Shown here: positions 1-24,245 of the stretch, piece after piece
How the letters are laid out: every line of letters starts with the position of its first letter
Position numbering within the stretch: position 1 is the first letter of the stretch
NCBI RefSeq assembly: GCF_014334335.1
Contig: NZ_JACSEU010000001.1
Span: 1,364,001-1,428,000 of the forward strand
DNA: 64,000 nt
DNA from: Treponema sp. Marseille-Q3903
GTDB taxonomy: Bacteria; Spirochaetota; Spirochaetia; Treponematales; Treponemataceae
Direction: 5' to 3'
The notes under the pieces: generated by a model
Databases searched by the model: none
What the model was told of the DNA's origin: nothing
Seen by the model: only the letters and a program-made list of their open reading frames with translations
Made by a program: the position numbers and the translations under genes

Positions 1-1747
1 TGTTTAGAACCGCTTCCGCCATTTTGCCTACAATTCTTGCATGGCATTCGGATAGAATCTCGTCATCGTTGGAAAGGTTACGGTAGTTCTCGTCTGCAAG
101 AACTTCTTCCCAAAGACTTGTTCCTTTGAATATGTCCTTGCCCTTCTGCCAAAGTTCCGGATTTTTGTTTTGCGTGTATGAATCCCAAAGGTGTGTGAAT
201 TCGTGTGCGTAGGTGTTGCTTGTGGCAATTTCTGGGTCTGCGTAGATTTTTCCGTCATAGGCAAAGCCGTAGATGTTATTTTCACCATCAATCATATATT
301 GAACACGGTTAGAAATGCTCATATCGCGGTCGTTGAATACGATGTAATTAGAACTGTCCATCTGCATACCGACATAGCCGCAGTTCTTCAAGAATTCGCT
401 AGTCTGCTTCTGGTTGCCCTTGAAAACATTTTTTGCAAGGACATCAAAATAAATATTCTTGCCGATGTCGTTTCTTGAAACTCGCCAATCGACATTCAAC
501 TTTTCAAGCTGTTCGTTTATGCGGTTAGCGTTTTCTATTCCAATCGGATTGTTGTATAAAAGATAGTTCGTATTGTCGTTGTCCGGAATATCGACAGAAT
601 AGAGGAATGTCTGCTCTCTTTTGTATTCAATCAAATCCAGAGAGAAAAGCGTTGTTATTGCTTCGTGTTCTTTTTGCAGTGCGGCATTGCCTTTTACATC
701 TGCGTTGATGAAATCGCTTGTAAGGCTGTCTATATCGTTACCTTTGAACTGCTCCAAGCGTTTTGTCCAGTATGGAGAGAAATTCTTTTCCTGCAAGAAT
801 TCATTGAACGGCTGATCGTTTATATAGAAAGTTCCGCCGTATTTTCTCGCTGCAATTTTGATTCCAAGCTGTTTTGCATTTTCTTCATTCACAGAAACAA
901 CATAAGTTCCAAAACCGTTGAAAGACTCTTCATTTTGAATGTCTTGATTAGTTCCGTATTTGACCGCCATCTTCTGGACATTCTTTCCGGCATCAAGAAT
1001 TGAACGCATAATGCTCGTATCTTCAATTACTTCTATATCAGCCCTGGCACAAAGGTTCTTCAAGAACTGTTCGGGGGTGAGTAGTTCTTCGTTTGTGTTT
1101 TCCATAGCCTGTGTGTTTTCGTTTGCCATAGTTTTTTCTCCTTGGATTGAGTTTATTTGGAATTGGATTTTTTCAGTTGATATTTTTTCTGATTGTGATA
1201 CAATGTTGTCGTAGTCATTAGTTGCCACTGTCGGATTAGCTATCGACTGTTCTTTTTGAATACGCTGACTAATCAATTGCCCGATTTCAGAGCTTTTATA
1301 AAGTATCTGTTCGGGCATTTTTATTTTATTAACCAAATTGTTTATATCTTTTTCGTGTGTTGATATAGAAACATTATCGTTTCCAATTACAACTACTACA
1401 GATTGAATTCCTTTTGATTTGTTTGCAATCAAATAACTTTTTGCATAAATATGAGATTTTTCTTCAGTTCCAAAAACATTTTTGCGCAGCTCATCAATAA
1501 TCAAATCTGGAGTATGTAATACTTCATGAACAGCACCAAGAATAAATTGCCTTTTCTTTGCATCCAGTTTTTCAAATTGATGACTTCCAAGTTTTACATT
1601 TTCTATAGGTGTCTGAATTCTACCGCGAGGGAAAAGAGCATCATAACTTTTTTGCGAAAACTCTATTCTTGGAAGTTCTTCAGCTTTTTCTTTAAGAACT
1701 TCTTTAAGAATATCTTTTAATTTTTCTAGGTCTCGTTCATTAACCAT
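1..1747 (-). CDS. Polyvalent mobile-element protein, nuclease-like domain plus zincin peptidase (partial)
   Basis: The frame is open from an ATG at 1747 (GGAG ribosome site) to the window edge, so the C-terminus is missing; about 582 residues are seen. Residues about 25-150 contain PRGRIQTPIENVKLGSHQFE and ILGAVHEVLHTPDLI and then an ISTHEKD motif. This resembles the Barnase/EndoU/ColicinE5/RelE-like nuclease domains found in phage and conjugative polyvalent proteins (family recall, not searched). Residues 515-521 read HEFTHLW, a zinc-peptidase HExxH motif, with a candidate third ligand Glu567 in LSECHAR. This zincin segment closely matches one in the giant protein at 3571-13431 (HEYTHLW, LSECHTR). 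An internal ATG at 1129 (residue 207) has its own AAGGAG site and could start a separate zincin protein. It is the last visible gene of the minus-strand operon. Proposed role: protection or processing of proteins and DNA on entry to a recipient; this is inference. Confidence 0.7.
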   Translation of the reverse strand, partial: MVNERDLEKLKDILKEVLKEKAEELPRIEFSQKSYDALFPRGRIQTPIENVKLGSHQFEKLDAKKRQFILGAVHEVLHTPDLIIDELRKNVFGTEEKSHIYAKSYLIANKSKGIQSVVVVIGNDNVSISTHEKDINNLVNKIKMPEQILYKSSEIGQLISQRIQKEQSIANPTVATNDYDNIVSQSEKISTEKIQFQINSIQGEKTMANENTQAMENTNEELLTPEQFLKNLCARADIEVIEDTSIMRSILDAGKNVQKMAVKYGTNQDIQNEESFNGFGTYVVSVNEENAKQLGIKIAARKYGGTFYINDQPFNEFLQEKNFSPYWTKRLEQFKGNDIDSLTSDFINADVKGNAALQKEHEAITTLFSLDLIEYKREQTFLYSVDIPDNDNTNYLLYNNPIGIENANRINEQLEKLNVDWRVSRNDIGKNIYFDVLAKNVFKGNQKQTSEFLKNCGYVGMQMDSSNYIVFNDRDMSISNRVQYMIDGENNIYGFAYDGKIYADPEIATSNTYAHEFTHLWDSYTQNKNPELWQKGKDIFKGTSLWEEVLADENYRNLSNDDEILSECHARIVGKMAEAVLN

Positions 1748-1763: not shown

Positions 1764-3110
1764 CTATCTTTCAATCTCATTACTCTTGTCGTGCTTATAT
1801 TGCTGTGTATGCTCTATATGCAAAGGCTTTTCGTTTGAGAACTGGCACATAAGTCTTGCTGCTTCGTTCAAGTCCTTTATATCGTAATGCCCGTTGTTCA
1901 AAGAATTGGTTTCGGAATTGTAAGATGTCCATACTGTGTAAGTGTGGTTTTTGTTGTTTTGAGCAAGAACTGTATAAAGGTTCTTGTCGTCTGGGTGTCG
2001 GCTTATAAGCAGAATCGTTTTTACCTTGTCTTCTGGCGCAAGGTATTCACCAATTTTTATTTGTGCGTCTCCTATTTTAACCATCTGTTCGGTTGTCATT
2101 GTTCGTGCAAATGTAGCCTGTTTATAATTCATCTGGTCCGTGTAATAATTGTCTGTGGGCTTGTATTTTGGCTCGCAATATAATTTTATGCCTATCATAT
2201 TCTGGTCATTGATATTGCCACCCTTTTGTTCGAGTTCTTTTGTTTTTTCATTTATTATTACATACCCTTTGTTAAAATAGTCGCCTTGTGTAAATCCTTT
2301 GCCGATTGCCATAGATACTTCTAATGAATTTGCCTGTTCAAATGATTTTGGATTACCAATAAAATTGTCTTGGTCAAACTTAAAAATTATATAATCCATT
2401 CTTTGTTTAGGAGGAATATTTTCATTTATAAAATCATCAAGTGGGGTTTCTTCAAGTTCCGGACAGATTGCGCCTGTATGCTGATTTATAAGATGAAGAA
2501 CATCTCCAAGATTTATTTTTGATTTGAAACTTTCAGAAATATTTTCCTTTACAATTTTTGCCTTGCCGTCTTGAACAAAAACAACAGGAACAGACTTGTA
2601 ATTTAATTTCCAATACTCCTGGCTGTTTCTGTTTGAGTATTCAGAAATCAATTTCCAGTTATCGTGCCAAATGAAATCGTATTCGCCGTATACTCTGTTT
2701 CCATCCTTTGTTTCGATGTAGAGGCTTTCCCAGTCTTCCAATACTCGTTCAAAATTCCGCATATCTTTTGAGTAAGGGCGGATATTGTCTTTTGTAAGCT
2801 TTTCCACAAAAGGCTTTACTTCTTCGTAAGAGGAATATTTGTCTTTGGCAATATCCATACCGATTTTGGCAATTTCATCTGAAAGATTTTCATTCCAGTT
2901 TCCGTTATAGTTTTCTTCAATTTTAGATTCAATTGCACTGGCTGCAAGCTTGCCCAAGATATATGTTTTCTCTGGACTCTCTTCATTCTGCAAATCGTAT
3001 AGTTTTACAACTTCATCAGAATAATAGTTCATTTTTTCAATTGCTTGCATAAGTTCTTCCGACGAAAATTCGTGATGGAAAAATGCTTCAATATTTTTTA
3101 CGTCATTCAT
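1764..3110 (-). CDS. Hypothetical protein of the polyvalent-protein operon
   Basis: A 448-residue soluble protein with no signal peptide or membrane segment and no family I recognise. Its first 45 residues (IEAFFHHEFSSEELMQAIEK and on) resemble the start of the 111-residue neighbour at 3223-3558 (EKFYETKYDKEQIVNAINHV), so the two share an N-terminal helical module. It lies 16 bp before the nuclease/zincin gene and after a cluster of three hairpins, in the same transcription direction, and is probably co-transcribed. The C-terminal third (HPDDKNLYTVLAQ, YTVWTSYNSET, LNEAARLMCQF) looks like the small alpha-beta LPD-type domains often found in conjugative-element polyvalent proteins, but this is only a resemblance. 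Start chosen at the first ATG, with an upstream AAGGAG-like site. Confidence 0.65.
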   Translation of the reverse strand: MNDVKNIEAFFHHEFSSEELMQAIEKMNYYSDEVVKLYDLQNEESPEKTYILGKLAASAIESKIEENYNGNWNENLSDEIAKIGMDIAKDKYSSYEEVKPFVEKLTKDNIRPYSKDMRNFERVLEDWESLYIETKDGNRVYGEYDFIWHDNWKLISEYSNRNSQEYWKLNYKSVPVVFVQDGKAKIVKENISESFKSKINLGDVLHLINQHTGAICPELEETPLDDFINENIPPKQRMDYIIFKFDQDNFIGNPKSFEQANSLEVSMAIGKGFTQGDYFNKGYVIINEKTKELEQKGGNINDQNMIGIKLYCEPKYKPTDNYYTDQMNYKQATFARTMTTEQMVKIGDAQIKIGEYLAPEDKVKTILLISRHPDDKNLYTVLAQNNKNHTYTVWTSYNSETNSLNNGHYDIKDLNEAARLMCQFSNEKPLHIEHTQQYKHDKSNEIER

Positions 3111-3144: not shown

Positions 3145-3226
3145 CACGACAGGATGTCGTGTATCGCAGTTTTGCCGAAGGCAAAATCTGCAGTGATAAA
3201 AATTACACGGATGTAATTTTTATCAC
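3145..3226 (-). repeat. Cluster of three consecutive perfect or near-perfect hairpins between operon genes
   Basis: Three inverted repeats stand side by side. Arms 3145-3151/3155-3161 pair over 7 bp. Arms 3166-3176/3180-3191 pair over 11 bp with one bulge. Arms 3193-3207/3212-3226 pair over 15 bp without mismatch. Read as minus-strand RNA, the middle loop is C(UUCG)G and the last is A(UCCG)U, both UNCG-type tetraloops that make very stable RNA hairpins. The longest one overlaps the stop codon of the 111-residue gene. None is followed by a U-run, so they look like RNA processing or stability elements, or a composite repeat, rather than terminators. Confidence 0.75.
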
Positions 3227-3558
3227 ATCTCCCTCTTATTCTTTTCAGACAAGTCAAATCTTATTGCTAGTGCCAGGTCATTCTTTTTGAAGAATTTATC
3301 TTTAATTACTTCGTGCGATTTATTGAGCATATAAGGTGCGCTTGGTTCTTGTGAAAAAGCCTTCCAGATATACATAAAATCATTCCAAGAAGTTTTATAA
3401 GACAAGAATGTAAAGATGAAATCGCGGATAGTAAGCTGGTCTTTCAAGTAAAGTTCAAAATCGACTTTTGCTTTGTTTACATGATTGATTGCGTTTACTA
3501 TCTGCTCCTTGTCGTATTTAGTTTCATAAAATTTTTCAAGTTCAAGTATTCTATCCAT
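3223..3558 (-). CDS. Small hypothetical protein, paralogous to the N-terminus of the 448-residue neighbour
   Basis: A 111-residue protein, mostly charged helices, with no recognised domain. Its first 40 residues share pattern with the N-terminus of the next gene (acidic helix, F/Y-rich, then QAI or NAI-x-x-N/M). It starts 12 bp after the end of the giant polyvalent gene, so it is almost certainly in the same operon. Its stop codon lies inside the 15-bp hairpin at 3193-3226, which may affect termination of translation or mRNA processing. An antitoxin- or immunity-like role for the neighbouring enzymes is possible but not supported by any motif. Confidence 0.6.
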   Translation of the reverse strand: MDRILELEKFYETKYDKEQIVNAINHVNKAKVDFELYLKDQLTIRDFIFTFLSYKTSWNDFMYIWKAFSQEPSAPYMLNKSHEVIKDKFFKKNDLALAIRFDLSEKNKREM

Positions 3559-3570: not shown

Positions 3571-6500
3571 TTATCTTGAATATCCAGTTTTTATTGGCTT
3601 AGGTGTTGAAATAATAAGATGTTGGTCTGCCCATTCTTTTGACGCTCCAGTTTGTTCAACAATCTTGTCTTTTATCTGCTGTTCTACATCAGTTACAGAA
3701 GATTCTTTTACATTGTCTTTAAGTTGGTAGCCATTCAGTTTTAGAACTTCATTTGAAAAGGCTTGCTCTACAGGGAATGTTCCATACTTTGATTCAATCA
3801 TCTTAGTGTCTATATTGTAGACAACATAACCTGCTGAACTTTCATCAAGATTCCATTCTTTAAGCAGAGCCTTACCTTTGTTTTGTGCTTCTGAAAGAGT
3901 TGTATATTCTGGTTGCTCGTCAAATCCGTTTCCATCGCTATCATAAGTAATTAGTTGATGAACTTTTTTCTGTTCGGTAACAGATTGCACTTGAAGTTCT
4001 TCCTCGTTAAAAAGCCAGCCTTGTGTGTCTTGTTGAACTTTGATTTTAACTTCAACAGGCTCTTTTGAAGATTTTGCAATTTCTGTAATCTTGTCCGCAA
4101 CTTCTTGAACGACTGCCTGAACTTTTGCCTTTTGCTCTGCTTCTCTTACTACAGGTTCAAGACTTTCAAGTTCACCGTCTAACCATTCATAGTAGGCTTT
4201 ATAACCAGCGGCAGAATAGTTCTTCTTTTCTTCCGTTGTAATTTCGCCTTTCTCCCACTTCTTTGAAAGCATTTCTTCAAATCTTTCTTTGCGGATTTCC
4301 GGCTCTACTTCTTTCATTGCTCGCAAGTTGTTTTGAATGTCAGAAGTAAAACTTTCTATCTGCTTTTCTACTGGAGGAAGAAGAATTTTCTGCTCGTTCA
4401 TTTTGAGCGTTTCTCTTTCAAGAATTTTAGGCAATTCTTCTTTCTTTGTTTTTAGCAAAGATTCAAGCTCGTGTTTTTTACTGTTAAGGGACGGAACAAA
4501 ATTGTTCAAGTCCTCTTCAGATTTGATTCCCCAAGAATTGAATTTTTTTGCAATAGTTTCCAACTGACGCTCATAACTTTCTCTATACTTGAGTTTGTCT
4601 TTAAGGTCTAGTTTGCACCATTCAGGAATTTCCAAATCTCTTGACTTGTAATCATCAATGCTTTTTTCCAAGCGTTTAATATCGATATTTGTTTCTTCAA
4701 GATTATCTTTGAGATTTTTACGCTTTTCATAAACTTCGTCATAAGATTTCAATCGGCTTTCAATTTTGTTCAGTTCGTTTTGAATTGAATTAGTTCCTTC
4801 AAATTTAAAAATGATGTTGCCATTTGAATCTTTTTCTTCAATTCCTTGTTCCAAAATCATCTTTGCCCTTTTTTGTGGGTCTTTAATCAAGTCAAACTTC
4901 AAGTCTTCCGGATTTATGTTTTCAATATTTAGAGTATCGCCGTCTTTGTAAGTCCAAAGCTCGTTTATTCGTCTTCGCTTTTCATCGTGCTTCTGGTATA
5001 AAACAGAATCAATACTGTCATTCATTACAGGATAGCAGCAATGAGTATGTCCCTGCATATTTCCCTGTCGCCAAATACGACCTTCCGCCTGTATTGTTTC
5101 AGAAGGATTCCAGCCAAGAGAACAGTTATACATAACAAATGAATTTCCGTTAAGGTCTATTCCTTCACTTGTGTTTTTTCCACCGATAAGGATTTTGCAT
5201 TTTTCGTTTGGGTCATTAAACTTGCTTGTTACCTTGTATTTCTTATCAGTTGAATTGTTTATTTCACCGTTGATAATTTCAACCGCTTCTTTTGAAATTC
5301 CGTGTTCAACAAGATAATCATTAATCATTCCATGAGCTTCTTTACCAAAAGGCAGATACAAGAACTGTCCTTTTTCGGGATTTTTCTTGTAGAGTTCAAT
5401 TATAGAATCGCAAACAAACTTTAGTTTTGGCGAGGTTTCAACAAGGTCTTTCATTGAAGGAAGTTTTATTTCAAACTCTGAATAGCGTGCTTCGTCCGCA
5501 AGAGCCGGAGCGACAAGCGCAAGTCTCATTGCGTTCATAGATGTTATGACAGCTGCGGTGTTTCCTTCTTTTACTTTGCTCATTTTGATAGTGTCTATTT
5601 CCATCATCTTTTTCTGCAAATCAGACATTTCTATCTGCTGAACATGAGTGAACTTTTTAGGACGGATAATTTCTTTTAGTTCCTCTCCGTCAACCTTATC
5701 AATAAATTCTGTAAGAATTTTCTGCAATGCAGGAAGTTCTTTCCAGTCTTTCATTACCTGCTTTTGGTCAATTTCGCCTTTAGAATTTACTCCAAGTTCA
5801 AGTTTTGTATGAGCAAACTCGTTGCAGAAATCTCGCAAAGAATACAAACCTGCATCTAAAAGACGTTTACGACCAACATAAGAAAGCATTGAATATACTT
5901 CTAGCGGTGAATTAGTAAACGGAGTTGCCGTTAGCAAGAATACATTACGGTCTTCGTTCTGCCGTTGTGTTAGTTGCGTCATCGCATAAAGTTTTACAGC
6001 TCGTGCGCTAGGCTTACCAGAAGGAATACCTGCAAACTCATTTGACTGTCCTTTTGTTTTAGGTTTTGGAACGGTCCACAAGTTCTTGAAGTTGTGGGCT
6101 TCATCTACAGTTATATTGTCCCAACCACAATCTTCAAAGAAAACAAAGTCATCATTTTTGACTTGTGATGCTGCGCCAATAACACCTTTAATCTTGTCTG
6201 CGTTCTTAGCGTTTTCAACTGCTGTTCCGTCCATATCTTCAGATAGGAGTTTTGAAAAATCATCGAACAATTCATTTTCGCAAGAAGAATCTGTAAATGT
6301 GATATTTTTCAATCCTTCATAAGTTACAAGAGAAATTGAGCATTCTGGAATATTGAGTTTGTGCGGATTTTCAGTATTTCTGAACTTTGCACTAGACGGC
6401 TTATTCAAGTTGTATAAATCGTTTACTTTGATATTTGGAAATAGTTCTGTAATATCTTTGAGCCACTTTGAATAAACAGCATTAGGAACTACAATAAGCG

Positions 6501-9500
6501 GTCTTGAACTTCTTCCAGTCTGAATCTGACTTACATTTGCGACAATTCCAGTTGCAGTTTTACCGACACCAACATCATAAGCTAACAAACCATTTCCTTT
6601 ATTTGAAAGGAATGAAACACCTTTTATCTGCTGGTCGTAAAGTTTGAACTTTTCGTTGCCTTTTGTCCGGCTCATTCCAGAAATAAACAATGGAAGTTTT
6701 GAATAGTCGGGTATGATGTAAGAATTAAAGCGTCTGTTGTATTCAGCAACTACCTGTTCTCTGACTTTTTCGGAAAGACCTTCGTGCAAATATTTGTCAA
6801 AAAGTTTGTCGGCAGTCTCGCTTCTTGCCATTCTCTTTTCATCAGCTTCTTTTTTATGCTGCGCTTTTTCTGCTTTTATTTCGTCTTCGTCTTTTCGCCA
6901 TGTTCCTAGAACTTTATCTGCCTTTACAGGCTTTTTGTCTATGTAGTCTACAATATCGTTCCAAGAAACATTTGGCGGAAAATCTTCTTCAGAAATATTG
7001 GCAGTTGCAAAATCTATTCCGCCTCTCCAGTAACGGCTATGGTCTGAATATGCGGATTGCAATGTGTGTCCGGCAGCCCAGAGAATAAAGGATTCTTGCA
7101 AGTTGATTTTTTCAATTTTGCCTTCTTCATTTATCTGCTCTATTTCAAATTCTTCTGCCAATGTTGTGTTTACACCAAAGTGCAATCTTTCCATTGGAAT
7201 TAAAGGCGGTGTAACACTTTCAAGCTGTGCAAGGTTCTTTTTATAAAGTTCGAGTTTTGCGCTGTCAGTTTCTGTATTTATTTCATTCTGGTAGTGGACT
7301 TTCTTTTCTGCAATATCGCCAGATTCAAAAAGAACTTTGTGAGTAAACTTGCCTGGTTCAACTTCGACATAGTTAGGATTTGAATGAAGCTGATTGTCTT
7401 CTTCAAAAGAAAGTTTACTGCGATCAATAATTCCTTCCCAGTTTGTAGCCTTCCAAATCGGCAAATCTTCTTCTTTGAATTGCTTGCCATACAGTTTGTT
7501 GAAGTCTTCGGCAGTCATTACAGGTGATTTTGTAAGAACAGGCTTTTTCTGTTCGACTGGTTCTGATTGCAAAGAAGATCCTGGAGTAACAGAAGGTTTT
7601 ATTTCTTCTTTTAGGCTATCATTTGCCCATTCAGAAACAACCTGATTCATCTGCTTGTCAAAAACATCATGTTCATTTATAAATTCCGGCAATTTAAGAC
7701 CTGTGTTTTCCTCAAAGATTTCCTTGACAAGTTTTTTCTCTTCAAAGGAAATCCTGTCATTATTCAATGATAAATGGCTTCGGATAGTTCCAACATCAGC
7801 CAGCCGCCTTGTTTCCAATGCAGATGCAAGTTCCTGAGCAATTTTGCGAGCATATCCTTCTTTGTCTGAAAAAACAGGTTCAATATCAGCTTCGATATAT
7901 TTCTCGTAAATCTGTTCTTTAAGAGGTTTTGATAAAACAGGAGAACGAGCCGCATTATAATTTACTCCAAGCTGTTCACCAATCTTTGCAAGTTCATCTT
8001 CGAGCGTTACACCTTCCGGCAAGTTTACACAGTTCTCCTCGCCAAATCTTCCACTGCGAGTTGATTCTACGCCGAGAATTTTTTCCGGGTGTTGTTTGAA
8101 GAATTGGTCATTATTGAAATAAGAAAGATGTTCTCTCCATTCAAGTCCAAAGAGGTCTGCATCCCAGTCGCTTTCACCTCGCGTTTCTTTCTTCAACAGA
8201 ACAATATCCGTTCCAACATCTGTTGAATCAAAAGCACCATTCGGCAAGCGGTAAGCGTCAATCAAAGTTCCTTTACTTGCGATAAGCTCCTTTATTTTAT
8301 CATTGCCACTTCTAAGCCAGCCAGAAGGAACTATAAAAGCAAGAAGCGAATTCTCGTCTTTAAGAGAATCAAGTCCTTTTTCTATGAAGTATTCTTCTAT
8401 GCGGTTATGATTTTTTCCTTCGCCACGACCTTTCCATTCATTTGAATAAGTGCCATAAGGCGGATTGCCAATTACAAGGTCATATTTTATAAGCTCTGTA
8501 TTTTGATTGTAAACTCTACCTGTTTTATCAAAGAATTGCGCCTGGAACGCTCCTTGAATTACTTCTGCTTCTGGGTGTAAGATTTTTGCGATGCGCGCGG
8601 AAGTTTCGTCAAGTTCACGCAAAGTAAATTCATTTTGCGGTCTGTTTTCTGCAAAGCGACCAATTCCACTGGAAGGCTCTAAAACTGTTTTTGCGTTAGG
8701 TGCATAGTGGTCTGCAAGCTGCCAGACAGCATTTACAATATTTCTTGGAGTGTAGAAAGCATTTAGAACTTCTGCGTTTGTGCGACCATCTTCATTAAGT
8801 CCGCCACCACCTTCATATTGTGAGAGAAGATTAAGATATTCCTTGTTTGCAGAAATTTCTTCGTCCGTGTGGTTTGCAAGAAGTTCTTTTACCTGCGAGC
8901 GAATATCGCGCGGAGTTAAGTTTGTATTTTGTTCAATTTCTTCATGATAAAGTTCCGGCATAATCACTGTGTCTGGATTTACAATTCCCATTGCAAGGTC
9001 ATATTCTTCTTTTGAGACTGTATGTATTCCAGCTTCAAGCTGCTCTTTTGCGTAGTCGCAAAGTTCTTTTAATGATTCATTTCCATTTAATGTTACACCG
9101 CCGATTTCAAGTTGCTCTTTCATATCTTCAATAAAGTGGTCGTTGATGTATATATCCATTCGGTCAAAGATTTGTTCGGCAGAGTTAAACTTCAAATCGT
9201 CTTCTGGATTGTCGTTTTCCTGTCTGTTGTCAAGGTATTCGTTTCGTTGGGTGTCGTAGACTTTCATTGTTCCGTCATTCTGAACTTCAATATTGAAATC
9301 CATGACATTTAGGATTTCTTCGAGTTCTACAGGGGAAGCAGTTATTTCTTCTTTCTTAAATTGAGCTTGCACCAAAGAAATATTTCTACCGTTCATCAAG
9401 TCTTTCATTGGCATGGAAATAAAGTCGGTAAAATTTATTCTATCTAATGTATGTTGATTTACTTTTCCATAACCAAACGCTTTTTCATTGATAAAAAAAT

Positions 9501-12500
9501 TCTTGTGTAGATAATCCCAGGTTTCATTATCCCAATCAATCACAGTGTCCTTTGTAAATTCACCGTTTTCCTTTGCGATTCGGTCAAGAACCTGCTGTGC
9601 AATCTTTCCGCAGATACGAGTGTGGCACTCGCTTAAAACAAGGTCGTCATCATCTGCTATGTCCTGATAGTTCGGGTCTGCTTTTACTTCGTTCCAAAGG
9701 TTTGTATGCTTGAAAATCTCCTTGCCCTTTTCCCAAAGCTCCGGATTTGTCCGTTGTGTGTAGGCATCCCAGAGGTGGGTGTATTCGTGGACAGCCGCTT
9801 CTGCGGTCATGATGTCAGGGTTCAGGTAGATTTTGCCGTTGTGGGTAAAGCCGTAGGTCTGGTTGTCTTGGATGAAGAATTGTTGCTTATCACTTGCTTT
9901 TTCTGTGGATAGTGATAAGATATTCATAGAAGCGTAAGCAGCTCCCACTTGAGCGTAAATTCCGAGAAACTCAGGTGCATATCTATAGTTGGCGATTACC
10001 GCAGCTATGGTTTCTGCCGCTTCCATTTTTGTTTCATCTACGTCAAATCCTGTAACAACATAAAATCCACGTTCATCTTTGTTTACAACAGTTTTTATTC
10101 CATTCCTAAAGATGCCATAGCTACCGTTAAGTTCTTTTAGTGCTGGAGATTTGTCGATGTTGTTTATTGCACAAAACATTATTGCACTTGTCTCCAATAA
10201 AGCCTTTTCTTCGCTTGCTTTATCGTGCTCAGCAAGTTTGTTCATTCGTCTGTGGATTATATGAGTAAGCCCTTTGGCGGCAATTCCATTTTCTGTTCCC
10301 CTGCGAACTCGAACAGCGCCTAATGTTTCATTTTCTCGTAAAAACGATTCACCTTCTTCAAGTGCGTTTATAATATCGGACATTAAGGATGTGTCTTTGT
10401 TTAAATCAAAATCAAGTTTCACAAAACCTTTTAGTAAGTCTTTATTCTTTTCCCGGAATTCTTCAACTTCCTTATCAAAATGCTCCTTATTTTTTGTTTC
10501 TGTATTGAAGGAAACAATTCCCGAATCTTGATAAGGCATACAAAAGCAGCCCTTTTCGACAGAATAGAAAATGCTTGCAACAGTTTTTGCAGCATCATAA
10601 AAGTTGTCATGGGTGTAATTTTGTCCATTAGCAGGCTTATGAAGAACTGCACCTTTGAAAGACAAGTTTTCTTCTACAAATTTTATCTCTTCATTGTCCT
10701 TGAAATTTCGGACAGGAATGAAATGTAAACTTTCATATTCAAAGACTGTCGGCTCGAAAGTATTTTTAAAAGCTTTCGATGATTGAACAGTATTTTTTAG
10801 TGCTTTTTCATGTTGTTCAGCCTTTAGGCTTTCTGAGTTCAAATTTTTCAAATAGAACTCTTCAAGTTTTTCATCCAAGAGAACCGACAAATCTTTTTCA
10901 AAAGCACTATACAAGGTATAGCCTTTATATTTTTCGATACTACAATTCTCAACATTATTCCAACTTTCTTGGATGCCGTTGCCGTGCATGTAAATGGATA
11001 TTTTGTTCTCTTTGCTATCTAGTTTTACGCTAAGGCTTCGATTATAATATCCTTCATCTATCAAATGAAAAGGTTTGTCGTATGGTAGAAGATTTTCTTT
11101 TTTAAGTTCGTCTAGGTGGGCATGGAATTTCTCAATATTATTCCGGCAAATGTCCGCAAGTTGTCTGTTGACATTTTTTTGAAGTTCATCTTTTTTATTT
11201 TGAATTTCTTCATTTTTTTGTGCAAGTTCTTTCAAATGTTCAAGGCTTACAGCCATCTTCTGCAAGACTTTCTCGTTTTCCAAAATGCGGTTGAATTCTC
11301 CCTTGTCCTGCACAACTTCAATACCGGCTGCAGAAAGTTTATCGAGAACAAAGTTTAAAGATTTGTTTTGTTCAACTTCTTCTGTCTGTTCTTTACCGTT
11401 GTTTTCCTCAAGTTCTTTTGGAACTGCAATGTCATACCCAGCTTTTTGGAATGTATCTACAAGTTCATTCACCGCATGAATAAGCAATGGGTCGTTTCTT
11501 GTTGTTGCCTGGTCTGCTTGTAAGAATGTATCGTCAATATAAATTTCATTGCCGTTATCACGAGTTGAAAGAACATACATTCCGTTTCCATTTGTATCAA
11601 GAACAAAGTTAGAAGGAATATAGACACCAATATTGGCACTTCCATTCTTACCATCATGCTGTTCAAATTCTTTCAACGCTTCTTGTGCTGTAAGATTTGT
11701 AATTGGCTCAAAATCCGCAAACTGTTCAAACTCTGCTGAATCCTGAACATAGAAAGAATATGATGGTTGTGTATTTTCGTTTTCAGCTGGATTTTCCTGC
11801 AATGCAGTTTTTTGCTGCTCGTTGTTCAATCTTTCATCATAGTTTTTCATTTCTTCGTTGAGGTCAAATTTCCATTCGCTTTCAGGAAGTAGTTCAAATC
11901 TTAATTCCGGGTAATTTTTGCAGATAGCGTGTTCCATTGACTGTGTATCATCAATGTAAAGGTCTATTTTTGTTTCAATCATTCCGCCGATTTTAAGGCT
12001 AGTTATTTCATCTAAATTGATATAGCCGAATTCAGCCATTTCGGTATCGCCATTCAATACGGCAAAACCAAAACCGATATTGTCATCGTCAATTTCTGAA
12101 ATATACCAATCACTGTTTCCGATGTAGTAATGGACAAAGCCCTTGTCGTGCAGTTCTGTTTCTTCGTTGTAAGATTTTCCGTTTGCGTTTTGACGGAGTT
12201 TCCTTCCCATATGTGCAATATGCTTGATACGCTCTTTGTAATGCTCCTGTTCTTCGCCATGAGTTGCGTAATCAAGCATTGTCGCATATTCCATTGGCGG
12301 AACAAGTTTTTTTGCAATATCAAGGTCTTCAATTTCCAATTCGACAGAATTTTGTTCATTGTTTTGGGTGGGGGGTGTCGAACTGATTTCTTCGTTTATT
12401 TCTTTTTCTTCTTCGTTCCAAACTTCGATTTTTGTTTCAACTTGATTGAAATATTCGCTTTCTGCCTGTTCCAGATTTGTATAATCGCCGTTGATAATGT

Positions 12501-13431
12501 CCCATGCCAACCTATGGGCAATTTCTTTTGGAGCGTCAAGATTGCTTTCGTCATTTGTAAGCTGGTGATTCAAGTTGAAGTCATTTACCAAAATCGCTGC
12601 GGCTTCTTTTGCCATCAAGTCCTGCAAGTCGGAAACATCAGCTCCAGGTAAATGTTCAAGGTGTTGATTTCTTAATTCCTGTTCTGTATAGTCTGTTTTG
12701 AAAAACTCGTTGAATTGGTCGATTGTATTTATTTCAAAATAATTCCCCACTTCTTTTGCAGCTTCAAGTGCAAAGTCCATACCTTCTCTTAAATCTTCCG
12801 ACATATCATGTTCGGCTTCCGGTGAAATATGCTCTTCCAGATTTTGTATATCATTTACAATTTCTTTATTGTTTTCGTTTATTTGCTCTTGAACTGTATT
12901 TTCCAATGAGTGCATGGCAACAGCAAAATCTTTTGCCTGTTCGTTTGAAACATCAATCTTACTTCCATCGTTGGAAATGACTTCTTTAATGGCGGCAATC
13001 TTGCGGTCAAGTTCCGCTCTTTGTTTTACCATTGCCACAAGTTCATCTATTGTTATTTCTTCGAGCTTGTTTTCCACTTGCTCTGTTGGAATAATTTTGA
13101 GTGATTCCAAGAATGATGAATTCTTTATCAAGTTTTCATCAAGAACTTCTTCGTTTTTGCTCTGTTCCCTCGCATATTGAATTTGAGGGTCTTCTATAGC
13201 CTGTCTTTCTTCTTCGTAGGCAGATTCAATGAGACTAACAAATTCAATTGATTTTTCATTCTGGTAGGCATACCACATCTGCTGTCTTTTGGACCATCTA
13301 AAGCCAGCGTCTTTGATTTCTTCAATTTGGTCTTCGGTCAGTTTCTTTTCGTAGCGGATTTCAATTCCATTCATTCTGTTGTTTATTGTTACTGAAAAAT
13401 CGTTGTTCTTGTAATTTCTTAATTCTGCCAT
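3571..13431 (-). CDS. Giant polyvalent protein: zincin + N6-adenine-type methylase + SNF2 helicase
   Basis: This single frame encodes 3286 residues. Visible modules in order: an N-terminal small domain around residues 40-60 (AGFRWSKRQQMWYAYQNEK, a motif common at the start of mobile-element polyvalent proteins); a long acidic and coiled region; a zincin at 1215-1221 (HEYTHLW) with candidate Glu1268; an amino-methylase with motif I (VLEPSSGIGRFA, near 1580) and catalytic NPPY at 1656-1659; an SNF2-type helicase with Walker A DVGVGKT at 2286-2292, DEAH at 2443-2446, LLTATPF motif III and motif VI GRIWRQG at 2784-2790; then coiled coil about 2850-3100 and a small C-terminal domain. Methylase-helicase giants (DarB-like) are known from phages and conjugative elements as protection proteins that enter or act early in the recipient. 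It is second in the operon behind the ArdC-like gene. The ribosome site is weak. Confidence 0.88.
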   Translation of the reverse strand: MAELRNYKNNDFSVTINNRMNGIEIRYEKKLTEDQIEEIKDAGFRWSKRQQMWYAYQNEKSIEFVSLIESAYEEERQAIEDPQIQYAREQSKNEEVLDENLIKNSSFLESLKIIPTEQVENKLEEITIDELVAMVKQRAELDRKIAAIKEVISNDGSKIDVSNEQAKDFAVAMHSLENTVQEQINENNKEIVNDIQNLEEHISPEAEHDMSEDLREGMDFALEAAKEVGNYFEINTIDQFNEFFKTDYTEQELRNQHLEHLPGADVSDLQDLMAKEAAAILVNDFNLNHQLTNDESNLDAPKEIAHRLAWDIINGDYTNLEQAESEYFNQVETKIEVWNEEEKEINEEISSTPPTQNNEQNSVELEIEDLDIAKKLVPPMEYATMLDYATHGEEQEHYKERIKHIAHMGRKLRQNANGKSYNEETELHDKGFVHYYIGNSDWYISEIDDDNIGFGFAVLNGDTEMAEFGYINLDEITSLKIGGMIETKIDLYIDDTQSMEHAICKNYPELRFELLPESEWKFDLNEEMKNYDERLNNEQQKTALQENPAENENTQPSYSFYVQDSAEFEQFADFEPITNLTAQEALKEFEQHDGKNGSANIGVYIPSNFVLDTNGNGMYVLSTRDNGNEIYIDDTFLQADQATTRNDPLLIHAVNELVDTFQKAGYDIAVPKELEENNGKEQTEEVEQNKSLNFVLDKLSAAGIEVVQDKGEFNRILENEKVLQKMAVSLEHLKELAQKNEEIQNKKDELQKNVNRQLADICRNNIEKFHAHLDELKKENLLPYDKPFHLIDEGYYNRSLSVKLDSKENKISIYMHGNGIQESWNNVENCSIEKYKGYTLYSAFEKDLSVLLDEKLEEFYLKNLNSESLKAEQHEKALKNTVQSSKAFKNTFEPTVFEYESLHFIPVRNFKDNEEIKFVEENLSFKGAVLHKPANGQNYTHDNFYDAAKTVASIFYSVEKGCFCMPYQDSGIVSFNTETKNKEHFDKEVEEFREKNKDLLKGFVKLDFDLNKDTSLMSDIINALEEGESFLRENETLGAVRVRRGTENGIAAKGLTHIIHRRMNKLAEHDKASEEKALLETSAIMFCAINNIDKSPALKELNGSYGIFRNGIKTVVNKDERGFYVVTGFDVDETKMEAAETIAAVIANYRYAPEFLGIYAQVGAAYASMNILSLSTEKASDKQQFFIQDNQTYGFTHNGKIYLNPDIMTAEAAVHEYTHLWDAYTQRTNPELWEKGKEIFKHTNLWNEVKADPNYQDIADDDDLVLSECHTRICGKIAQQVLDRIAKENGEFTKDTVIDWDNETWDYLHKNFFINEKAFGYGKVNQHTLDRINFTDFISMPMKDLMNGRNISLVQAQFKKEEITASPVELEEILNVMDFNIEVQNDGTMKVYDTQRNEYLDNRQENDNPEDDLKFNSAEQIFDRMDIYINDHFIEDMKEQLEIGGVTLNGNESLKELCDYAKEQLEAGIHTVSKEEYDLAMGIVNPDTVIMPELYHEEIEQNTNLTPRDIRSQVKELLANHTDEEISANKEYLNLLSQYEGGGGLNEDGRTNAEVLNAFYTPRNIVNAVWQLADHYAPNAKTVLEPSSGIGRFAENRPQNEFTLRELDETSARIAKILHPEAEVIQGAFQAQFFDKTGRVYNQNTELIKYDLVIGNPPYGTYSNEWKGRGEGKNHNRIEEYFIEKGLDSLKDENSLLAFIVPSGWLRSGNDKIKELIASKGTLIDAYRLPNGAFDSTDVGTDIVLLKKETRGESDWDADLFGLEWREHLSYFNNDQFFKQHPEKILGVESTRSGRFGEENCVNLPEGVTLEDELAKIGEQLGVNYNAARSPVLSKPLKEQIYEKYIEADIEPVFSDKEGYARKIAQELASALETRRLADVGTIRSHLSLNNDRISFEEKKLVKEIFEENTGLKLPEFINEHDVFDKQMNQVVSEWANDSLKEEIKPSVTPGSSLQSEPVEQKKPVLTKSPVMTAEDFNKLYGKQFKEEDLPIWKATNWEGIIDRSKLSFEEDNQLHSNPNYVEVEPGKFTHKVLFESGDIAEKKVHYQNEINTETDSAKLELYKKNLAQLESVTPPLIPMERLHFGVNTTLAEEFEIEQINEEGKIEKINLQESFILWAAGHTLQSAYSDHSRYWRGGIDFATANISEEDFPPNVSWNDIVDYIDKKPVKADKVLGTWRKDEDEIKAEKAQHKKEADEKRMARSETADKLFDKYLHEGLSEKVREQVVAEYNRRFNSYIIPDYSKLPLFISGMSRTKGNEKFKLYDQQIKGVSFLSNKGNGLLAYDVGVGKTATGIVANVSQIQTGRSSRPLIVVPNAVYSKWLKDITELFPNIKVNDLYNLNKPSSAKFRNTENPHKLNIPECSISLVTYEGLKNITFTDSSCENELFDDFSKLLSEDMDGTAVENAKNADKIKGVIGAASQVKNDDFVFFEDCGWDNITVDEAHNFKNLWTVPKPKTKGQSNEFAGIPSGKPSARAVKLYAMTQLTQRQNEDRNVFLLTATPFTNSPLEVYSMLSYVGRKRLLDAGLYSLRDFCNEFAHTKLELGVNSKGEIDQKQVMKDWKELPALQKILTEFIDKVDGEELKEIIRPKKFTHVQQIEMSDLQKKMMEIDTIKMSKVKEGNTAAVITSMNAMRLALVAPALADEARYSEFEIKLPSMKDLVETSPKLKFVCDSIIELYKKNPEKGQFLYLPFGKEAHGMINDYLVEHGISKEAVEIINGEINNSTDKKYKVTSKFNDPNEKCKILIGGKNTSEGIDLNGNSFVMYNCSLGWNPSETIQAEGRIWRQGNMQGHTHCCYPVMNDSIDSVLYQKHDEKRRRINELWTYKDGDTLNIENINPEDLKFDLIKDPQKRAKMILEQGIEEKDSNGNIIFKFEGTNSIQNELNKIESRLKSYDEVYEKRKNLKDNLEETNIDIKRLEKSIDDYKSRDLEIPEWCKLDLKDKLKYRESYERQLETIAKKFNSWGIKSEEDLNNFVPSLNSKKHELESLLKTKKEELPKILERETLKMNEQKILLPPVEKQIESFTSDIQNNLRAMKEVEPEIRKERFEEMLSKKWEKGEITTEEKKNYSAAGYKAYYEWLDGELESLEPVVREAEQKAKVQAVVQEVADKITEIAKSSKEPVEVKIKVQQDTQGWLFNEEELQVQSVTEQKKVHQLITYDSDGNGFDEQPEYTTLSEAQNKGKALLKEWNLDESSAGYVVYNIDTKMIESKYGTFPVEQAFSNEVLKLNGYQLKDNVKESSVTDVEQQIKDKIVEQTGASKEWADQHLIISTPKPIKTGYSR

Positions 13432-13460
13432 ATTATTTGCTCTTGTTAGAAAGTCTTAAA

Positions 13461-13498
13461 ATTAAAAAACTGGACGGAAACCGAAATTTCCGCCCAGT
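13461..13498 (-). terminator. Rho-independent terminator or attenuator after the ArdC-like gene
   Basis: A 12-bp stem (arms 13469-13480 and 13487-13498, one G-U type mismatch) with a 6-nt loop is followed on the minus strand by a run of five T then a T-rich tail. It lies between the ArdC-like gene and the giant gene, so it would make the first gene the most abundant product, with the giant gene expressed by read-through. Confidence 0.75.
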
Positions 13499-13514
13499 AA
13501 AAAGTGAAAAGGAA

Positions 13515-14285
13515 TCAGCTTCTTTCAATTCCCTGTTCTTTTTTTTTCCCCTGTTCCTGTTTCTGCTGATGTTCCTGCTTTACTTCCGCATAAAGTTTCT
13601 GGTTGATTGCATTAGCCTTTGTATCAACCTTGAACATCAGCTCGCTATACTTGTCCACACCTTCTTTGCGGTCGGCAGGTTTTGAAAGCTGATTGTTGAG
13701 GACTTCAGTAAACTTTTCTATAAACGCTTTTGCAACTTTGGGACTTGCAGTTACGGTAGCGCCAGACTTGCAGGCTGCAATATAAGCGCCAAGATATTCT
13801 TCTGGTTCTGCAGATGTGATTTCGATTGTCTTGTCGAGTTTTCGTTCACCGTTTTTCTTTACCTTTTCTTCAACGGCTTTTGCGACAGCTTCTGGATTTG
13901 CAGTCTGTTCTGGAAAGAAGAACTGGCTTGTCCCTATTGTGTTTGTTTCTTTATCTTTTACATAATTGTAGAAGAAGCCTTTTTCGCCTTCCTTTACCTG
14001 TGTTCCGGCAGCATTTACAGTTTTGAAGGTTACTACAACATTTGATTTGTCGCCGTTTTCAACCTGCAATGGTAGAAGGTCCTTTGCGTTCAGACAGAAT
14101 CCAGTGTTGCCATTGTAAATAGCCTTTGCGTCAATCTTTCCTGTCTGGTCTGGCAAGAAAGGCGCTGTGCCGTTTTTAATACCGGCTTTGATTACTTTTG
14201 CATTGTGGGCTGGAACAAAATATCCGTTGAACTGCTTTTCGGATACATCGTTGTTGAAAGGTTTGTTGGAATTTAAGGAACTCAT
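13515..14285 (-). CDS. ArdC-N-like (ssDNA-binding/antirestriction-like) protein
   Basis: A 256-residue protein without signal peptide. Residues about 60-110 show an order of features like the ArdC N-terminal domain: a Y-x-G-N-x-G-F-x-L-N segment (IYNGNTGFCLNAKDLLPL), then TFKTVNAAGTQVKEGEKGFF, matching the family pattern TF-x-Q-x-x-x-x-G-x-x-V-x-x-G-E-x-G. ArdC proteins bind single-stranded DNA and block restriction of incoming DNA. The C-terminus is a Lys/Gln/Glu-rich tail. It is first in the operon, has a very strong AAGGAG site, a structured 5' leader and its own terminator, so it is probably made early and in quantity. The assignment is by pattern only; a DUF of unrelated fold remains possible. 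Confidence 0.5.
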   Translation of the reverse strand: MSSLNSNKPFNNDVSEKQFNGYFVPAHNAKVIKAGIKNGTAPFLPDQTGKIDAKAIYNGNTGFCLNAKDLLPLQVENGDKSNVVVTFKTVNAAGTQVKEGEKGFFYNYVKDKETNTIGTSQFFFPEQTANPEAVAKAVEEKVKKNGERKLDKTIEITSAEPEEYLGAYIAACKSGATVTASPKVAKAFIEKFTEVLNNQLSKPADRKEGVDKYSELMFKVDTKANAINQKLYAEVKQEHQQKQEQGKKKEQGIERS

Positions 14286-14463
14286 AATTGTTTCTCCTTA
14301 AAAAGTTAAATTTTCTTAAGGAGAAACAAGTCTCCTTAAAATTTAATGCACTTGTCCCATCAGACTAGGAGTTCCGACTGACAAGATATTCAAGGGCATT
14401 AAAGGTAGTTTCTAACAGAAACTGGTTACGCAAATGGAAACGGAATTTTTTATTTGTATAACT
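14286..14463 (-). promoter_or_regulatory. Structured 5' leader with an alternative ribosome-site hairpin
   Basis: Between the predicted transcription start (about 14463) and the ATG at 14285 the minus-strand RNA can fold extensively. Hairpin A pairs 14407-14412 with 14418-14423. Region B has outer arms 14345-14349/14396-14400 and inner arms 14351-14356/14380-14385. Region C contains an anti-Shine-Dalgarno stretch (14316-14326) that can pair either with the real ribosome site (14291-14301) or with an upstream decoy copy of it (14331-14339). This layout fits a translational on/off switch. I do not recognise a known riboswitch class. Confidence 0.55.
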
Positions 14464-14469
14464 AACAAT

Positions 14470-14498
14470 ATTATAATTGCATTTATTACATTATGCAA
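14470..14498 (-). promoter_or_regulatory. Sigma-70 type promoter of the polyvalent-protein operon
   Basis: On the minus strand TTGCAT (14493-14498) and TATAAT (14470-14475) are separated by exactly 17 nt. The predicted start is near 14463, leaving a leader of about 180 nt before the ArdC-like gene. Confidence 0.7.
14477..14498. promoter_or_regulatory. Candidate operator (TTGCAT-N10-ATGCAA)
   Basis: A perfect inverted repeat, TTGCAT at 14477-14482 and ATGCAA at 14493-14498, covers the -35 box and the spacer of the minus-strand promoter. A repressor bound here would block that promoter and could also affect the divergent one 26 bp away. The HTH-MazF-like protein at 15329 is the nearest candidate regulator. 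Confidence 0.45.
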
Positions 14499-14523
14499 TA
14501 GTAAGATTATATTTTTTACAATA

Positions 14524-14552: not shown

Positions 14553-14558
14553 TTATGT

Positions 14559-16709: not shown

Positions 16710-18587
16710 TTATTCAACTTGCCGAGTTCCGACATTAGGATCATCTGGCAGGTTGTTTTTCTTTGTTTCAGGTTTCGTATTCTGATTATTAAAATCAAAT
16801 TCAGCAGGATTAACAGTTGATATATAGTTTTTATCTGAATCAACAGAATCCCTTCCGGCACGATTAACATCTATATTGCTTTGTGGCATATTATAACCGC
16901 GTCCTTGCATAAGCGTTTGTTTTGGATTGAGAATTGCTCCAGAATAATGTGCCATAAATCTACCCGCACTTCCTGCAACTCCGCCATGTTTTTTATATTC
17001 GGCTTTCTGCATTTCTTTAACTTCTGAAGAAGCCTTGTGTCCTGCACTATTAAGTTTTTCTTTGATTTCTCCTCTGTTTTCACCGCTGCGTCTTTCTTTA
17101 TTCCAATCCATTTGCAATCGCTTTTGCTCTGATTTTGAAGAGCCATATCCATTATTCTTTCCCCACTCATCCCTTAGTTCTGCATTTTTCTTTTGTCTTG
17201 CGGCAGTAGAAGCACCAGACCTCTCGCTCCAATCATGAGCTTTCTTTTGAGCCAATGCTTTTAGAGGTGATAAAGCAGTTCCGGCAGTATTCTTTGCCAT
17301 CATTGCTCCTGTTCCAAGAGTTGCCGCTGCTTGCATAAGTTCACCCATAGAAAGTTGCGGTTGTCCAGTAAGAAATGTCATAGCTATTTTTGGTGCATTA
17401 CTTGTAAGAACAAATGATAGTAAAATTATAAAAATACCTTCTGCAAAAACAGGTAAACTCATGCTACCGCTAGAAGGTGAAATTTGTTGTGCTGCATATT
17501 TTAAGTTTAAGTTCAAAACAAACATCATACATATTGTAATTACAATAATTTTAATTACAAATCCAGTAAAAACATTGACAAGTTTCTTTGGAATTTCTTT
17601 TGTTCCGTCAAATAAATATAAAGGAACAAAGGCTGCTCCAAGTCCCTGAACAATAATATATTCCAATACGCACATTACATATTGGATAACACAAAATACC
17701 CCGGCCGCAATTAAACAAAATGCCAAGACATCAGCCATAATGCAATCGGCCAGATAATCAAAATCAAGATTAGTTATGGATATACCTTTCCTTTTTTGAA
17801 CTTTGTATTTAATTTCACCGTCATCATTAGGTTCTTCAACAACTTCCATTCTGGCCTTTTCTTTGATAATTTGACCACTTAAGAGAAAGATACGAAGAAT
17901 GGCCGCACCAGAAAGATAACTAGTTGCATTTGCAACTTCATTGCCGTTTTCGTCTTTGCTTTTTTTTGAAAGCCACATATTTACATCGGGTTTATCTACA
18001 ACATAGGCTTCTGTAATATTCGCACTTCGTTCGCCTTTTGTATTCCGCATTATCAATACTTCGTTCAATGCGTTCAATGTTTTCTGCCCATAAATAGTGT
18101 TTTCTTCTTTAGGTCTTGTTTTTTTATATGCTTCAACTTTTTTATTGGCAGCTTTAATTTCTTTGCTTGTAGAAAGAGGGTTCATTTCAATTTCAAGTTC
18201 TGCTTCCTCAAGGTCTTTCAAACCCTTTTCCCATTGTTTTTGAAATTCCAGTTCTTTTTCAATTCTGGATTTTAGACTTACGAAATTTTTAACAATAGTA
18301 GTTTTTCCTTCACCGGCATTAGTTCCAATGTTGTTTGCAATAGCGGAAATTGCATTTGTTCCCACAACGTAGAAATTCAAGAGCAAAACAAAAACAAACC
18401 ATTTTGAAAGCATACTCCACCAAGCGTCTCGCATAGTTATTCTTGAATTGATAAGCTTTACAGAAGTCCAGATTATTCCAAGCAATCCGAAGAAATTGCC
18501 ATAAGCAAGTGCAAACTTGAAGAAGTAGACCAATACACCTTGGAAATAATCTATCGCTTCGATTATTGGTGAGTCTATAAAATCCAT
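16710..18587 (-). CDS. trbL: TrbL/VirB6-like inner-membrane channel protein of the conjugation machine
   Basis: A 625-residue protein. The first 440 residues hold several hydrophobic segments (LVYFFKFALAYGNFFGLLGI, VFVLLLNFYVVGTNAISAIA, VLAFCLIAAGVFCVIQYVMC, IKIIVITICMMFVLNL). The rest is a hydrophilic tail rich in Gly, Ser, Lys and Asn. This build and the position directly after trbJ match TrbL/VirB6, the polytopic inner-membrane part of type IV secretion systems. A charged loop at about 75-200 is larger than usual. Start chosen at the ATG with AAGGAG upstream, 15 bp after the trbJ stop. Confidence 0.8.
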   Translation of the reverse strand: MDFIDSPIIEAIDYFQGVLVYFFKFALAYGNFFGLLGIIWTSVKLINSRITMRDAWWSMLSKWFVFVLLLNFYVVGTNAISAIANNIGTNAGEGKTTIVKNFVSLKSRIEKELEFQKQWEKGLKDLEEAELEIEMNPLSTSKEIKAANKKVEAYKKTRPKEENTIYGQKTLNALNEVLIMRNTKGERSANITEAYVVDKPDVNMWLSKKSKDENGNEVANATSYLSGAAILRIFLLSGQIIKEKARMEVVEEPNDDGEIKYKVQKRKGISITNLDFDYLADCIMADVLAFCLIAAGVFCVIQYVMCVLEYIIVQGLGAAFVPLYLFDGTKEIPKKLVNVFTGFVIKIIVITICMMFVLNLNLKYAAQQISPSSGSMSLPVFAEGIFIILLSFVLTSNAPKIAMTFLTGQPQLSMGELMQAAATLGTGAMMAKNTAGTALSPLKALAQKKAHDWSERSGASTAARQKKNAELRDEWGKNNGYGSSKSEQKRLQMDWNKERRSGENRGEIKEKLNSAGHKASSEVKEMQKAEYKKHGGVAGSAGRFMAHYSGAILNPKQTLMQGRGYNMPQSNIDVNRAGRDSVDSDKNYISTVNPAEFDFNNQNTKPETKKNNLPDDPNVGTRQVE

Positions 18588-23261: not shown

Positions 23262-24245
23262 TTAAATAAGATGATTGGATTCAAGCTCTTTCATAAAGAT
23301 AGAACTTGCCGCCTGATGAGTTTCCATAACTTCGTTTACCACAGGACCGTTTTTTGTCGGTATCATGTGGATAACGAGCTGGACACTTTGGGCAATATCA
23401 GGCAGTTCACCCAATATAACTTCACGCAAATATGTTCTGAGTTTTTCAATTGTAAGCAGTGCGCTATCAGAGTGGACAGTGGTAATACCTCCACGGTGTC
23501 CCGTATTCCACGCTTTAAGAAGCTCGTTTGTTGTTGAGCCATATCTTAACTCGCCGAATATAATCCTGTTCACATGGCAGCGGAGTGCAATTCTAACAGC
23601 CTTTACCGTATCTTCACCTTCCGCCCAGATTGGAACAAGGTCTTTTGCATTGCATTGGATTTCACCAGCGTCTTCTACGATGTAGAATCTGTCATCAGGA
23701 GTAAACTCCGCCATTTTTGCTATGATTGCATTGAGCATTGTTGTTTTTCCAGAACCCGTAGCACCGCCTAAAACTATGTTGCTCCTCATTTCAATATGCT
23801 TCATAATCAGGTTGTATTTATCTTTTGAAAGCCTTCCCTGTTGGATATAGTCTTCCAAAGTAAAAATCTTATTGCTTGGTCTGCGGATAAATATCATCGG
23901 ACACTCTGCGCTTCTTGGCGGAAGAATACCTTCAAAGCGGATTTTGTAATTGGTAAGTTTAATTGTTCCTTCGACAATAGGATTTTTTTGATCAATAGTA
24001 ACTCCCATTACCGCTGCACTTGCATAGATAATTCTTGTAGTTGTCGCCTCGTCAAAAATTATTCCGGTATAGTTTTTATCCATACCGATTCCCTCGACAA
24101 TAAGCTCTCCACCGTGTCCAATGGCAATATCGGTAACATCGCGATTGTCTATGTAAGGCATAATGAGCTTCATATCATCTTCAAGATTTCTGAGCCACTT
24201 GTTCTGTTTTACAGTTTGGTTTATATCTTCTACTGAAACACTCAT
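23262..24245 (-). CDS. trbB: TrbB/VirB11 traffic ATPase
   Basis: A 327-residue hexameric secretion ATPase of the VirB11/GspE type. Walker A GATGSGKTTM is near residue 160; then the Asp box RFYIVEDAGEIQC, the His box (VRIALRCHVNRIIFGELRYG) and Walker B region as in the family. The N-terminal domain (NRDVTDIAIGHGGELIVEGI) is also typical. It powers pilus biogenesis together with TrbE. It begins directly after the stop of the RHH gene (TAA-ATG), so it is translationally coupled. A 130-bp gap without a gene separates it from trbC. Confidence 0.92.
   Translation of the reverse strand: MSVSVEDINQTVKQNKWLRNLEDDMKLIMPYIDNRDVTDIAIGHGGELIVEGIGMDKNYTGIIFDEATTTRIIYASAAVMGVTIDQKNPIVEGTIKLTNYKIRFEGILPPRSAECPMIFIRRPSNKIFTLEDYIQQGRLSKDKYNLIMKHIEMRSNIVLGGATGSGKTTMLNAIIAKMAEFTPDDRFYIVEDAGEIQCNAKDLVPIWAEGEDTVKAVRIALRCHVNRIIFGELRYGSTTNELLKAWNTGHRGGITTVHSDSALLTIEKLRTYLREVILGELPDIAQSVQLVIHMIPTKNGPVVNEVMETHQAASSIFMKELESNHLI

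Follow-up and report, generated by a model that had tools for sequence, protein, structure and literature searches.

Passages of the survey of polyvalent proteins by Iyer et al. (2017; PMC5512222) name zincins as the commonest domain of this class, present in about 36% of its members, and describe metallopeptidases fused to SWI2/SNF2, adenine methylase and PBECR1 domains in phages and conjugative elements. Both self-processing and cleavage of host proteins are proposed there for the whole class; processing is reported for DdrB of phage P1, and the substrates of the zincins are given as a prediction. Here we describe a 3286-residue protein encoded in a 64,000-nucleotide window of Treponema sp. 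Marseille-Q3903 (positions 1364001-1428000 of a 2.2-Mb contig in a 2.5-Mb genome), which is most likely one of these polyvalent proteins, carried by a conjugative element that has integrated into a genome of Treponema type. The combination of zincin, methylase and SNF2 helicase is already known, and the protein joins the known polyvalent proteins as a further member, a single chain made up of several unrelated enzyme domains. All coordinates below are those of the window unless a locus is named.

Domains of the 3286-residue chain

The gene is one open frame with an ATG start and no internal stop codon, and no break appears in the sequence as given. A preliminary description had assigned a peptidase, a DNA methylase and an SNF2 helicase to this single chain, and Pfam, family alignments and structure models agree with it. 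The features are:

3571..13431, reverse strand: polyvalent protein, 3286 residues, one open frame, ATG start
9472..9879, reverse strand: zincin-type metallopeptidase domain, residues 1185-1320 (family alignments A1, A2 and A6; two models; VIA)
9766..9789, reverse strand: HEYTHLWD, residues 1215-1222 (motif position)
9622..9636, reverse strand: LSECH with the predicted Glu ligand, residue 1268
9922..10329, reverse strand: PBECR1-like domain (predicted RNase), residues 1035-1170, with H in GLTHII and T in VVTGFD
7552..8934, reverse strand: adenine methylase region, residues 1500-1960 (PF07669, PHROGs and the motifs FYTP, LEPSSGIGRF and NPPY)
8797..8817, reverse strand: YEGGGGL, a GXGU motif of LPD36 type (motif as defined in a passage of PMC5512222)
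5062..6627, reverse strand: SNF2 helicase/translocase, residues 2269-2790 (PF00176, PF00271, phrog_10089)
11935..12138, reverse strand: DUF2958-like domain, residues 432-499 (PF11171)
13249..13323, reverse strand: weak DUF5710-like stretch, residues 37-61 (14.4 bits, under the cut-off of 26.5)

Residues 1185-1320 are a probable metallopeptidase that would bind a metal and be active. HEYTHLW and a possible Glu ligand had been singled out in the preliminary description, and a zincin-type domain is supported by a conserved family: all 62 rows of alignment A2, down to 22% identity, retain both His residues, the catalytic Glu and the Glu ligand. That HEYTHLW does not vary is partly an effect of the search, as the A2 rows were found with the patterns HEYTHLW or NP[EM]LW[EQN][KR]G; the ligand Glu lies outside both. 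Candidates for A2 were pre-filtered (domain E 1e-15, at least 130 residues, "HE" in the piece), and the alignment omits 6 of 67 as second, partial or short copies; A1 comprises 14 of 18 rows, with a degenerate copy among those dropped. Second zincin copies with HEYGH and HEYAH occur. The structure models predict a sheet and an active-site helix for the HEYTH region, with the HExxH helix at residues 51-69 of model 1 and the Glu on a later helix at 103-113; the predicted local distance difference test score is below 50 over the first 22 residues of model 1 and the first 15 of model 2, where a helix before the sheet is expected. As to the profile search suggested earlier, the motif region has no match in Pfam or PHROGs, and the support comes from our own family alignments and their kept ligands. 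Fourteen zincin members scanned singly against Pfam gave no meaningful match, PDB sequence searches with the zincin gave nothing significant (the helical tail matched a designed repeat protein at E 0.005), and protein-query scans for relatives found none. Asp1222 and His1270 are both present in 46 of the 62 A2 rows and both absent in 16, which a single change on the tree explains, so that the pair is a clade mark.

About 8 residues separate the end of the PBECR1-like domain from the zincin match. An iterated profile joins this domain, aligned at the His and Thr, with four sequences that pass PF18809 (L110, 66.2 bits; L070, 62.4; L079, 37.4; L020, 30.8; cut-off 27.6), and the GLTHII His and the VVTGFD Thr agree with the catalytic site reported for RNases of the PBECR superfamily, whose His belongs to the first helix and whose Ser or Thr belongs to a late strand. 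A fifth relative, L015, has no match to PF18809. The window domain itself stays below the gathering score of PF18809 and has no Pfam match, and we therefore call it PBECR1-like rather than PBECR1; it is probably RNase-like and may act as an RNase.

In the methylase-helicase half, the GXGU, TP and NPP(Y/F) motifs of the DarB-type dyad of LPD36-methylase and SNF2 are followed in order by the SNF2 motifs, with LPD36 judged from its motif alone. The motifs start at residues 1539 (YEGGGGL), 1559 (FYTP), 1584 (LEPSSGIGRF) and 1656 (NPPY), then 2286 (DVGVGKT, with GKT at 2290), 2443 (DEAH), 2500 (LTATP) and 2781 (QAEGRIWRQG). Eco57I methylase (PF07669) matches residues 1632-1725 with 46.9 bits (cut-off 25.3), SNF2 (PF00176) residues 2269-2450 with 55.9 bits, Helicase_C (PF00271) residues 2690-2790, and phrog_10089, "DarB-like antirestriction", residues 2221-2601 at 1e-71. 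By analogy with this family, the half may be a DarB-type antirestriction module that would move along the incoming element DNA and methylate it. PADLOC gave DISARM-type helicase and methyltransferase rows and one weak DpdE, which led nowhere. DUF2958 scored 18.8 bits when the whole chain was scanned and 23.8, against a cut-off of 21, when the piece was scanned alone.

Zincin and PBECR domains among relatives

Matches to the methylase-helicase part at E 1e-30 occur in 28 of 195 genomes of the family. We compared 21 chains, namely that of the window and 20 places with both methylase and helicase matches, leaving out helicase-only and remnant places. This answers the survey of DarB-like proteins that had been suggested: a zincin of the window type lies within the chain in three (the window, G047 and G068), a different HExxH...E motif stands at the chain N-terminus in two (G043 and G042), and in 16 of the 21 none was seen. 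The zincin occupies an adjoining gene in three of the 21 (G191, G014 and G129), a gene about 6 kb off in G147, and a separate gene beside the methylase-helicase gene at locus L053. G147 and G087 belong to the same genus as the window genome.

The motifs of the two divergent chains, L124 in G043 and L126 in G042, fall in the N-terminal ~100-160 residues and read HEAAH or HEIAH, then EEAFA.G.E, with MuF_C adjoining; they look like another zincin type, and the motif region has no match in Pfam.

A domain of PBECR type accompanies the zincin or zincin-like motif in all five chains: the window has the PBECR1-like one and the other four have MuF_C. The remaining 16 have MuF_C in one (G078), in a scan for the PBECR1 and MuF types; among these 16, L122, L123 and L127 are cut by contig ends and L125 is broken. 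Because of the cut and broken chains, the unsearched PBECR2-5 and the relatedness of the rows, this co-occurrence is suggestive and does not amount to a test. L125 (G035) is a methylase-helicase chain in several pieces. G023 was not counted: one of its contigs stops within a zincin-methylase chain while a second starts within a methylase-helicase chain, which may be a further fused case.

Relatives of the zincin were found at 33 loci in bacterial genomes and 38 in viral contigs. A PBECR1- or MuF-type domain is present in 26 of 70 distinct zincin chains, and in a placement test on 21 of these 26 it lies within 80 residues of the zincin in eight, where random placement gives 2.45 and at least eight were reached in 1 of 2000 draws; four of the five left-out chains, which are short or cut, also pair within this distance. 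Such pairs account for 6 of 9 Treponema rows and 2 of 12 others. Apart from the window, six members of the scan set combine zincin, methylase and helicase matches in one chain: L047 (the G068 chain), L054 (the G047 chain) and the viral contigs L081, L094, L112 and L097 (partial matches). On the zincin tree 8 of 62 rows are fused, with chains cut by contig ends scored as unfused, and at least five changes of state are needed, so that fusion seems to recur. The distribution is patchy, with the zincin in 6 of 392 genomes drawn from the phylum, the window's own included. The same zincin type (HEFGH...E) occurs in a 2482-residue "structural protein" of Tenacibaculum phage Gundel_1 (L141, 4056-11504), near the portal gene, which fits virion packaging for phage versions.

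Possible roles of the zincin

The preliminary description proposed that the peptidase would cut itself or a host protein on entry, the two options already in print for the class. It lacked the PBECR1-like domain, DUF2958 and the type IV secretion context, and the RNase-like domain together with the conjugative setting changes the likely reading of the peptidase. Our preferred account, which we hold tentatively and a little short of an even chance, is that the zincin cleaves the giant chain at linkers adjoining it and so frees or limits the RNase-like domain, while the methylase-SNF2 part guards the element DNA. The chain would be carried into the recipient, where the methylase-SNF2 part would protect the incoming element DNA in cis from type I restriction. 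With its metal bound, the zincin would cut at the adjoining linkers, either once the protein is made or inside the recipient, and the cut would separate the putative RNase from the methylase-translocase. The parts of this scheme that the data carry are the domain identities, the conserved ligands, the predicted fold, the conjugative setting and the repeated pairing of PBECR with zincin in those methylase-helicase chains that have a zincin, and the processing of P1 DdrB (a passage of PMC5512222) counts for self-processing. Several points weigh against it: the RNA polymerase of N4 enters the virion without being processed, and ArdC and TraC1 are moved across as intact proteins (passages of PMC5512222); the peptidase Glu of ArdC is dispensable for antirestriction, the E229A variant keeping full conjugation activity (a passage of PMC7213743); and most surveyed methylase-helicase chains are without a zincin. 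The last two points would be expected of a non-catalytic or dispensable module, with a binding or structural role, a status that the ArdC peptidase seems to have in antirestriction. Pure scaffolds usually lose their catalytic residues, and the invariance of the four active-site residues in A2 makes such a module clearly unlikely here, even though HEYTHLW was among the patterns searched for.

Alternatively, the zincin may be an effector aimed at a recipient protein, for instance a restriction or defence protein, and sit in the chain only for joint delivery or expression. This would fit the loci where the same zincin is encoded on its own, next to a methylase-helicase gene (G191, G014, G129 and L053), an arrangement that suits a target in trans, and host targeting is among the options named in passages of PMC5512222. 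The zincin is mostly found within very long chains, however, 26 of 70 of them with a PBECR-type domain as well, and the target is conjectural; we regard this as somewhat unlikely. That the domain is some other HExxH enzyme and no peptidase, for example an alpha-ketoglutarate-dependent oxygenase, is very improbable, even though the oxygenase chain 8s5f is among the fold-search rows and a passage of a preprint on the N4 structure (PMC12633501) notes that radical SAM enzymes have HExxH as well, with reference to a paper on fused HExxH domains. Chance occurrence of HExxH in a helical linker is hardly credible: shuffled chains of the same composition hold a mean of 0.146 such motifs. The region matches neither Pfam, PHROGs nor, significantly, any PDB sequence, but the conserved family, the invariant distant Glu and the predicted sheet with its active-site helix speak against chance, which we rejected on the family alignment.

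Self-cleavage with release of the RNase-like domain can be taken further, in a form we consider rather doubtful, to a portable PBECR-zincin release cassette. Different PBECR families would occupy the position ahead of the zincin (PBECR1 type here, MuF_C elsewhere), the peptidase would mainly free, activate or destroy the RNase following entry, with the methylase-translocase protecting the DNA, and the four-part protein would have been rebuilt with the other zincin-like type in G043 and G042. The recurrent RNase-zincin pair spans ~290 residues and is easier to express and assay than chains of 3000-6000 residues, so that the self-cleavage proposal becomes directly testable; such a compact part may also help to test substrates of polyvalent-protein peptidases. 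The value of the locus lies in this handle on what polyvalent zincins cut, the kind of protein being ordinary.

Conjugative setting and comparison with known systems

The genes around the giant include:

13515..14285, reverse strand: 256-residue ArdC-N gene, directly upstream (PF08401, 27.3 bits; cut-off 22.6)
3223..3558, reverse strand: 111-residue open reading frame, downstream, no family matched
1764..3110, reverse strand: LPD24 gene, 448 residues, downstream (PF18839, 51.2 bits)
1..1747, reverse strand: first 582 residues of a 1660-residue gene with weak PBECR2 and zincin (HEFTH); MuF_C lies beyond the window edge
16710..18587, reverse strand: TrbL/VirB6-like type IV secretion gene (below cut-off; NF010449 E 5e-8; PF04610 22.1 against 25.9 bits)
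19600..22191, reverse strand: VirB4/TrbE-type ATPase (NF010447 E 1e-172 and TIGR00929 E 5e-121, below equivalog/subfamily cut-offs)
23262..24245, reverse strand: VirB11-type ATPase (T2SSE; PF00437, 86.6 bits)
24675..26858, reverse strand: coupling protein VirD4/TraG (PF02534, 262.5 bits)
35190..36593, reverse strand: TrbI/VirB10 (PF03743, 159 bits)
38518..39696, reverse strand: relaxase-like MobA/VirD2 nuclease (PF03432, 24.3 bits; cut-off 24.6)

The VirB4, VirB11, VirD4 and TrbI genes, with the TrbL-like and relaxase-like genes (both below cut-off), mark a conjugative element and place secretion and relaxase genes alongside the giant, as in other polyvalent-protein loci. The second zincin noted earlier in the gene at 1-1747 is confirmed by a zincin profile match with HEFTH at residue 515; HEVLH at residue 74 lies outside that match and inside the weak PBECR2 match (20.9 bits; cut-off 27.1). 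ArdC-N relatives occur at 8 of 20 fetched methylase-helicase loci, and at L118 (G014, 10400-15739) a 1780-residue neighbour chain joins a zincin to a relative of the window's ArdC-N protein, a pairing known from ArdC. Among or near the conjugation genes are also a 1973-residue protein with repeated Big_2 Ig-like domains and phage Ig/tail family matches (29149-35070, reverse strand), an N6/N4 DNA methylase (40506-41768, reverse strand) and a topoisomerase with PF01131 and Toprim (43794-45941, forward strand). The window also holds a C5 DNA methylase fragment (42260-42577, reverse strand; PF00145, 46 bits) whose four in-frame stops mark a decayed gene. A literature search for a Treponema element of this kind found nothing, and among the matches listed in a whole-word search for PBECR and metallopeptidase only PMC5512222 has both.

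With phage P1 DarB the chain shares the methylase-helicase part; it belongs to a conjugative element rather than a virion, and carries PBECR and zincin in addition. The ArdC system of plasmid R388 (as described in a passage of PMC7213743) likewise serves conjugation and combines ArdC-N with an HExxH...Glu peptidase, there in one small protein and here in a neighbouring ArdC-N gene and a giant whose zincin has no Pfam match. The C1 domain of the coliphage N4 virion RNA polymerase is an HExxH domain in an injected protein of ~3500 residues (a passage of PMC12633501), with an RNA polymerase in place of the methylase-helicase; the A2 profile aligns the C1 strands and HELVH at E 0.93 to 3.1, which is not significant. 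Closer in content is WP_237827837.1 (3234 residues) from the complete plasmid pE2-28 of Prevotella sp. E2-28, with methylase at residues 95-305, SNF2 at 795-1412 and a zincin of the same family at 2083-2247; it differs in placing the zincin after the helicase, in its MutS-I and nucleotidyltransferase domains and in having no PBECR1/MuF-type match.

The polyvalent proteins of Iyer et al. (2017), as set out in passages of PMC5512222, share the zincin, the gamma-class adenine methylase with GXGU/TP/NPPY, the SNF2 ATPase, the type IV secretion neighbourhood and the nearby ArdC-N and LPD domains, and a chain of metallopeptidase and PBECR1 is named there. Different here are the position of PBECR immediately before the zincin within a methylase-SNF2 chain, ArdC-N as a separate gene, and the zincin clade without a Pfam match, which may be one of the 12 metallopeptidase clades of that survey. 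As far as these passages go, our analysis adds this zincin clade and the recurrent PBECR-zincin neighbourhood, with PBECR families exchanged, in methylase-SNF2 chains.
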